57,250 nucleotides of DNA from assembly GCA_020854815.1 (NCBI GenBank), contig JAHKLW010000044.1, positions 1 to 57,250 on the forward strand. Direction: 5' to 3'. Of the stretch, positions 29,833 to 33,770 are shown piece by piece (the first letter of the stretch is position 1; each line of letters opens with the position of its first letter). The stretch comes from Methanofastidiosum sp. (GTDB taxonomy: Archaea > Methanobacteriota_B > Thermococci > Methanofastidiosales > Methanofastidiosaceae). A model generated the notes under the pieces. That model did no database searches, was not told the origin of the DNA, and was given only the letters and a program-made list of their open reading frames with translations. The position numbers and the translations under genes are program-made.

Positions 29833-30420
29833 ATGCTTGGAACATTAATACAGCTTATTATTTTATTCTTTGTTGTTATTGATCCTCTAGCAAGTTTCTT
29901 CGTCTTTTATGCCACTTCTTCAACAATGGTCCCAAAAGAAAGACAGAAGACAGGCGTTCTGGCTATATTAATTGCTGTTTTATTGTGTTTCTTGGTGCTT
30001 ATCTTAGGTCAGAGTTTATTGGAACTATTCAGCACGACTCTGGATGAATTCAGGATAGCAGGAGGGATAATACTGACAATTCTCGGAATAAAAATGGTTC
30101 TAGGGGAACCTTTGATAAACACACATGACAAAAAAGAAAACTCTGCCCGAGCCTTAGCATCTATTATTGCAACACCCCTTATTACTGGACCCGCTACTAT
30201 TTTCACAATTATTATAGCAAGTAACGATTATGGAAAAGTTCTGACAGGTATTGCTGTTGGTATTGTTCTCTTAGTAACGGTCTTATTATTCCTTATGTCT
30301 AATAAAGTGAAAAAAGTATTGGGTGACACGGCCACCCAAATTGCTATGACCATACTTGGGTTAGTAACACTTTCTTGGGGAGTGAAGTTCATAATCCTTG
30401 GGATAAAAAATATCTTCTAA
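29833..30420 (+). CDS. MarC-family integral membrane protein
   Basis: A 195-residue protein with six helices. DPLASFFVFYATSSTMVP near residue 18, GGIILTILGIKMVLGE and ATPLITGPATIFTIII match the MarC/YchE family (old name multiple antibiotic resistance protein; the transport function is unproven). An AGAGGGA ribosome site lies just before the ATG. It converges on the MgtE-like gene. Confidence 0.87.
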   Translation: MLGTLIQLIILFFVVIDPLASFFVFYATSSTMVPKERQKTGVLAILIAVLLCFLVLILGQSLLELFSTTLDEFRIAGGIILTILGIKMVLGEPLINTHDKKENSARALASIIATPLITGPATIFTIIIASNDYGKVLTGIAVGIVLLVTVLLFLMSNKVKKVLGDTATQIAMTILGLVTLSWGVKFIILGIKNIF

Positions 30421-33008: not shown

Positions 33009-33061
33009 AAGATATAATCTATAAACAATATAAATTTTTCTAGATATTTGATAACGGAAAA

Positions 33062-33070
33062 TTTTAAATA
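33062..33070 (+). promoter_or_regulatory. TATA box of the candidate ncRNA
   Basis: TTTTAAATA lies 29 bases before the base where the terminal stem of the structured RNA begins (33091-33092), the distance expected for an archaeal TSS. It sits 54 bases after the stop of the preceding gene. Confidence 0.6.
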
Positions 33071-33090
33071 AAGTTAATTGAATAATTAAT

Positions 33091-33387
33091 GTTGCACAGG
33101 TCGAAACTTCGCTGGTAACAAAGTCTTTCATTCCTTGCATCTGGGCCGCTTAGGCGGATTTGAGTTTCACGCTCCACCCGCATTCAAGGCTCTTGGACAA
33201 GGGTATTTCCGGGATGGCTAAGTCTTATCGGAAAGTATTTGAGCCACGCTCAAAATTACCCGGTCCTTGACATTGAAAAAAATGTCTCTATCGGACACCG
33301 AAAGGCAATAGCCGCTTCGAGAAGTCGAAGCATCCGGCTATGAAAGACCTACTCCTTCGAAGCGACAAACTGTGCAATTTTTTCTTT
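33091..33387 (+). ncRNA. Candidate structured non-coding RNA, class unknown
   Basis: A GC-rich island in an AT-rich intergenic region with its own TATA box. The ends pair: TTGCACAG (33092-33099) with CTGTGCAA (33370-33377), GTCG (33100-33103) with CGAC (33363-33366), CTTCG (33107-33111) with CGAAG (33358-33362), 17 pairs in all. Next, GTCTTTCAT (33123-33131) pairs with ATGAAAGAC (33340-33348). Inside are hairpins at 33146-33157, 33238-33254 (TTTGAGC-CAC-GCTCAAA), 33269-33286 and 33308-33341 (CTTCGA-GAAG-TCGAAG core). A further arm at 33184-33270 has GGGTA (33201-33205) paired with TACCC (33257-33261) and TTTCCG (33206-33211) with CGGAAA (33229-33234). I did not find RNase P (GGAAAGUCC-type) or SRP helix 8 signatures. 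There is no coding frame of note. Confidence 0.7.
33370..33387 (+). terminator. Putative T-run terminator of the ncRNA
   Basis: The closing strand of the terminal stem (CTGTGCAA) runs directly into TTTTTT, C, TTT (33378-33387), which is the type of signal that ends archaeal transcription. Confidence 0.5.
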
Positions 33388-33423: not shown

Positions 33424-33770
33424 TTGGCGTTGTTATATTTCCACTTGAAGCAAATATTTTGGGAAAAAGTTGCACTAATTACAAATGTGCTCAATTTCTT
33501 TGCAGCAATTATTATCGGATTATTGATAGGAGTGATAATGTCAATAAATATCTTAAAGAATATGGATTCATCTTTATTTTCATATTTCTTGGATGCTTCT
33601 CATCTCTAAAAATACCAATGCTAACAATTGAAACTGGGTACCTTGGTATTGAATTTACTCTAGCAAGAGCCGCCATCGCCGTCCCATTGTTCATTGGAAT
33701 CGGGCACTTAATGGATTATTACCTAAAAGGAAAAGACTTTCAGGTCACAGACCCAACTGAAGCAAATTAA
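33424..33770 (+). pseudogene. Frameshifted remnant of a permease-like membrane protein
   Basis: Two hydrophobic reading frames join across a one-base shift near 33535-33560. The first (from 33424) gives VALITNVLNFFAAIIIGLLIG, the second gives YLKEYGFIFIFIFLGCFSSL and then LGIEFTLARAAIAVPLFIGIGHLMD, ending at 33770. Together they look like the C-terminal part of a predicted permease (DUF318/ArsP-like, with LGxxFxxARxxxxxPxxxxxG), missing its N-terminal half. It begins about 37 bases after the ncRNA. A sequencing error is an alternative to decay. Confidence 0.5.

Follow-up and report, generated by a model that had tools for sequence, protein, structure and literature searches.

An undescribed family of structured RNA genes in Methanofastidiosum with bulge-helix-bulge ends, probably processed by the tRNA splicing endonuclease into circular RNAs

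The canonical form of the archaeal bulge-helix-bulge (BHB), hBHBh', has a published definition (PMC7714728, PMC6379350) and serves as a substrate for the tRNA splicing endonuclease (EndA). The known circular RNAs of archaea that are excised at such motifs are by-products of tRNA and rRNA splicing or single cases of known RNAs, namely SRP RNA. In Thermoproteus tenax and T. uzoniensis, a circular and permuted SRP RNA is made by way of a BHB and the tRNA splicing endonuclease (PMC4731332). Its gene is free-standing, with a TATA box and a short leader; leader and trailer form the BHB, and after cleavage the RNA is circularised, RtcB being the proposed ligase. In Haloferax volcanii, the 5' UTR of HVO_1309 yields a BHB circRNA and is an EndA substrate outside tRNA and rRNA (PMC7714728).

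This study concerns a stretch of 57,250 nt from Methanofastidiosum sp. (GenBank assembly GCA_020854815.1, contig JAHKLW010000044.1, forward strand), the whole of which is called the window here. The element at 33062-33387 of the window is a member of an undescribed RNA gene family. A previous sequence-only reading had described it as a GC-rich island with a TATA box, a terminal helix, a second helix inside it and a T-run, and all of its coordinates were correct on re-checking. TATA-like TTTTAAATA lies at 33062-33070 and the T-rich run TTTTTTCTTT at 33378-33387; the terminal helix joins 33092-33111 to 33358-33377 through 8 + 4 + 5 = 17 pairs and is interrupted by AAA bulges at 33104-33106 and 33367-33369, and the second helix (33123-33131 with 33340-33348) is present. 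The G+C content is 0.41-0.51 within the element versus 0.17-0.35 around it. The fold of the + strand has an energy of -107.3 kcal/mol compared to -76.6 +/- 5.0 for shuffled sequences (z = -6.1; 0 of 200 shuffles). While the pairs and bulges of the terminal helix stand, its description as a plain closing stem does not, and it is better regarded as a site for processing by EndA. That reading missed that the AAA bulges, 4 bp apart, make a BHB, and it missed the paralogues elsewhere in the genome. The features of the element are as follows.

33051-33070, + strand: promoter element ATAACGG-AAAATTTTAAATA, an ATAACAG-like box plus BRE/TATA (from the upstream regions of the 26 family members and a genus-wide pattern search)
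33090-33105, + strand, 5' end approximate: predicted 5' 'exon' stub that would remain after EndA cleavage, made of helix h, GUCG and the first two bulge A's (from the sequence, the BHB scan and the TATA spacing)
33092-33111, + strand: 5' strand of the BHB, UUGCACAG-GUCG-AAA-CUUCG (GUCG and AAA identical in 26/26 members)
33106-33368, + strand: predicted excised RNA of 263 nt, presumably circularised (from the canonical hBHBh' geometry; PMC7714728, PMC6379350, PMC4731332)
33123-33131, + strand: class A inner helix, 5' strand (partner 33340-33348)
33314-33331, + strand: family-wide hairpin GCUUCGA-GAAG-UCGAAGC (present in 26/26 members)
33340-33348, + strand: class A inner helix, 3' strand
33358-33377, + strand: 3' strand of the BHB, CGAAG-CGAC-AAA-CUGUGCAA (CGAC in 25/26 members, CGAU in one; AAA in 26/26)
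33369-33377, + strand: predicted 3' 'exon' stub ACUGUGCAA (from the sequence)
33378-33387, + strand: T-rich run, probable archaeal transcription terminator

The family has 26 members in 10 Methanofastidiosum genomes, with genes of about 276-293 nt that fall into four paralogous classes: A (8 members, including the window copy), B (6), C (9) and D (3), the last closely related to B. No genome has more than four copies or more than one of each class, and the genome of the window (G000) has one of each, at C44:33085 (A), C102:24890 (B), C71:5432 (C) and C15:4843 (D). A blastn search of 61 genomes with a 301-nt query found class A orthologues in seven further genomes of the genus, 86-95% identical to the query, and also shorter matches to both ends of the RNA elsewhere in those genomes, which belong to full paralogues. 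Together with further copies recovered by a covariance model, these make up the set of 26 genes. Model R1, derived from classes B, C and D without any class A sequence, recovered all eight class A copies at E-values of 2e-6 to 3e-4, values that are rough due to a short calibration. This indicates that class A is kin to the other classes and is not merely similar to them at the ends. When 105 other genomes of the taxonomic class were searched with the covariance model and a two-ended exact pattern, 11 genomes of the same order among them also with laxer filters, no member of the family was found outside the genus. Searches for phage, plasmid or viral homologues found none, and three pattern matches in IMG/VR were chance matches without the remainder of the RNA. 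No description of the family was found in open-licence papers, a scope that may miss subscription work.

Judged by its sequence and pairing, the terminal helix with its two AAA bulges is a canonical archaeal hBHBh'. The closing stem reads CACAG-GUCG-AAA-CUUCG with CGAAG-CGAC-AAA-CUGUG as its 3' strand, so that a 4-bp central helix carries 3-nt bulges at its 3' side on opposite strands and has longer helices on either side. Both AAA bulges were invariant in all 26 members. The central helix GUCG/CGAC was Watson-Crick paired in 25 of the 26, and the remaining one, the class A member of G003, has a G-U pair there as well as a mismatch at the start of its inner helix. The helices that flank the central helix vary with compensation, and in the 25 canonical members the outer helices were at least 4 bp (h) and at least 3 bp (h') long, where two Watson-Crick pairs in each is the minimum required. 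A loose scan of the window for BHB motifs gave 157 matches, one of which outscores the element by helix length; the case for a BHB therefore rests on its conservation over 26 members and four paralogous classes. The positive control was the 16S processing stem in another genome of the genus (G007), which has the identical geometry, GGUG-AAU / CACU-AUA (in full, AAGUCCAAUAUCUU-GGUG-AAU-UUUAGG... / ...CCUAAA-CACU-AUA-AAGAUAUUGGACUU), and a scan of the 23S for a BHB found no convincing stem. The interval between the predicted cuts is 251-268 nt in all 26 members (263 nt in the window copy). The ligated stubs, listed for every member, would form only a hairpin, which in the window copy is UUGCACAG-GUCGAAA-CUGUGCAA. 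The window's genome encodes a single EndA of 168 aa with both domains, a size typical of the homotetrameric enzyme, and a gene for RtcB is present as well.

The sequence-only reading had called for a search for homologues and a test of the helices for covariation, and the helices of the 26 members covary strongly. In the alignment of the closing stem and the common hairpin, 93.8% of cells were paired, seven pairs had two-sided changes, and none of 500 shuffles attained the covariation score. The interior of class C had two-sided changes in 25 of 90 pairs, compared to 11.1 +/- 2.3 when shuffled and 6-11 with partners slid. Circular alifold found compensatory changes in 27 of 90 pairs for class C, 20 of 85 for B and D together and 4 of 83 for class A, the low number for A being due to the close relatedness of its members. 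The class A inner helix in particular is nearly invariant, which makes the covariation test for it a weak one. In the class C fold, the closing stem is accompanied by an inner stem and a long 5' arm, and there is a junction with two branches, namely the hairpin GUUUCGA-GACG-UCGAAAC and a compound arm that begins with GGUC/GACC; classes B and D agree with this. Class A broadly follows this plan, with an arm of its own that is richer in G+C. Classes B-D have the three-way junction in common, and beyond the closing stem and the common hairpin all four classes differ elsewhere. The hairpin, with 99.4% of its cells paired, is GUUUCGA-GACG-UCGAAAC in most members outside class A. One of its pairs is C-G in class A versus U-A in B-D, and its closing pair is A-U in one member.

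The resemblance of the element to known RNAs was also assessed. The sequence-only reading did not find the conserved cores of RNase P or SRP RNA, and covariance models likewise gave no match. Running the Rfam search that it had recommended against Rfam 15, no family reached its gathering score in the window and nothing was credible at E <= 10; nine other family members had no match either, the best sub-threshold ones being at chance level. The archaeal SRP RNA model (RF01857) had no match in the element at E <= 10, nor in the other members searched at E <= 5 or E <= 10, and the genome's own SRP RNA is on G000:C72 (166.8 bits), while the archaeal RNase P RNA model (RF00373) had no match and the genome's own RNase P RNA is on G000:C78 (165.8 bits). 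With ordinary genes for both in the genome, the suggestion of a divergent essential RNA is unsupported for SRP and RNase P. An archaeal tRNA intron was rejected since its exons would form a tRNA, and there is no tRNA in the window. A second SRP RNA, of bacterial type, was seen on G000:C75 (L117, 1-2567) beside bacterial-looking DNA with a dnaX-like ORF and a tRNA-Ser, followed by a transposase-like ORF; this contig is likely a contaminant in the MAG.

A TATA box is located 26-29 nt upstream of the start of the RNA, taken as the first helix, in 26/26 members, and a T-rich run follows the 3' stub in 24/26, being weak in two class C members. The earlier proposal of a new structured non-coding RNA that has a promoter and a terminator of its own is supported by the existence of the family, its covariation, the TATA spacing and the T-rich ends. 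Most copies are preceded by a promoter-like block, ATAACAG-AAAWTTTAARTA, and the block of class D differs. A genus-wide search for the promoter pattern found matches mostly ahead of family members. The use of the box as a regulon mark was rejected; the few other matches precede unrelated protein genes. In classes A-C the ATAACAG box lies some 10 nt ahead of the TATA box. Class D lacks it, as do the genes for SRP RNA and RNase P RNA in the window's genome, and the box is possibly the site for a specific regulator.

The model proposed here is that transcription would proceed from the TATA box, starting near 33090 and ending in the T-rich run, and that the ends of the transcript would pair into hBHBh', a folding supported by covariation. 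Going by the motif, EndA would cut each AAA bulge between its second and third A (33105/33106 and 33368/33369) and release a heavily folded RNA of 263 nt, which RtcB or another RNA ligase may close into a circle. Circle formation is expected because BHB-excised archaeal RNAs, including the Thermoproteus SRP RNA, behave this way (PMC4731332). Ligation of the leftover ends could give a U-tailed hairpin of about 25 nt, and these ends would be 'exons' without a tRNA. Overall, it is quite probable that the element is a gene standing on its own, that it encodes a structured non-coding RNA with BHB ends, that EndA cuts these ends and that the excised part is circularised.

The organization of the gene is similar to that in Thermoproteus in being free-standing, with a TATA box, a short leader, and a leader and trailer that form a BHB, while the cleavage and circularisation reported there, and the ligase proposed there, are predictions for this family. 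However, the Thermoproteus product is a known RNA in permuted form, whereas this family matches no known RNA, has up to four paralogues per genome and, in the window's genome, coexists with a separate SRP RNA gene. Archaeal tRNA and rRNA introns and pre-rRNA stems (hBHBh') share with the family the geometry of the motif, the predicted cut after the second bulge nucleotide and the expectation of a circle. In contrast to these introns, the family has no tRNA or rRNA exons; its predicted 'exons' are short stubs, and it is the excised part that is conserved and looks functional. The HVO_1309 case differs in being a 46-nt intron in an mRNA leader rather than a stand-alone structured RNA with several paralogues.

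One alternative is a structured linear non-coding RNA that stays uncut, with the two bulges of the terminal helix serving to bind a protein and not as a site for EndA. The bulges and the central helix are invariant in sequence too, beyond the reported needs of EndA, which fits a sequence-specific protein, and the promoter and the T-rich end both belong to the element itself. However, the shape is exactly that of the published hBHBh', its strands are arranged as in the 16S processing stem of the genus, and EndA recognises such a shape outside tRNA, so a linear RNA is considered unlikely. A circular or linear modification guide (C/D or H/ACA) is less likely still. Archaea are known to have C/D RNAs that are circular and C/D introns that are excised at a BHB (PMC12558985), but when a box C/D sRNA was sought as RUGAUGA plus the D box CUGA, the RUGAUGA C box was found in 0/26 members, and complementarity to the 16S and the downstream rRNA region was no better than that of shuffles.

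Two further alternatives are judged against the genes around the RNA, as each class keeps its own neighbourhood. Class A always follows a metallo-beta-lactamase-fold gene (8 genomes), class B retains its own neighbours, and class C is always convergent to a MarC-like gene wherever the contig extends far enough. The sequence-only reading had mentioned a leader for a damaged permease gene, and the remnant is real: on the same strand downstream, at 33459-33770, is a 103-aa ORF with 89% identity over 64 aa to the ArsP_1-type permease of G001, and intact relatives, present as two permease halves, come after the RNA in G001 and G004. However, an unrelated minus-strand gene is found there in G009 and none in the others. 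Because the RNA is kept in 8/8 class A genomes while the downstream gene varies, it is not tied to one gene as its leader, nor is it a repeat that moves about. A T-rich run also follows the RNA, and the class C copies face a convergent gene. A role in cis, with the element as leader or riboswitch of the ArsP-type permease or of some other flanking gene, therefore has a probability close to negligible. A small mobile element of the MITE type, with the conserved ends as terminal inverted repeats, seems just as implausible. About 25-30 nt at both ends are common to the copies, in inverted orientation, and the middles differ, but no genome carries a second copy of any class and the loci are conserved, the copies also have the promoter ahead of these 'ends' in common, the interior helices covary, and the ends are imperfect inverted repeats with AAA on each of their own strands.

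For the favoured reading of an excised and circularised RNA, the near-invariant common hairpin points to one protein bound by all classes, and the divergence of the arms to partners that differ. The circles may be stable scaffold or regulatory RNAs that share a bound protein and use class-specific arms to reach different partners, and the best guess for their function is a structured RNP scaffold. More tentatively, and with somewhat less than even confidence, the family may represent a new class of archaeal RNP, in which paralogous circular structured RNAs with a common protein-binding core and class-specific arms come from dedicated genes via the tRNA splicing machinery. The processing route is already known; a dedicated multi-copy family of 'introns without hosts' is new, as far as can be told. 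If true, the tRNA splicing machinery would serve archaea as a means of making functional circular RNAs. The prediction gives the exact bonds to be cut and the back-junction, which for class A would be ...GAAGCGACAA/ACUUCGCUGG... (...GCGACAA/ACUUCG..., the slash marking the joint).

Several minor observations concern the surroundings of these genes. The ArsP_1-type remnant can be followed over 33424-33770 of the window, where the 103-aa ORF consists of an N-terminal piece fused to the counterpart of the C-terminal third of the G001 homologue; the two-gene versions at this place in G001 and G004 are larger. Genes for MarC-family membrane proteins are located at 29833-30420 of the window, about 3 kb upstream of the class A RNA, and at 835-1467 of L115, directly convergent to the class C RNA; this proximity to both classes may be a coincidence. 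In G003 (L106, 1-793), a transposase-like ORF ends just upstream of the class B RNA, and the ATAACAG/TATA block is intact there, which is consistent with a role as promoter.
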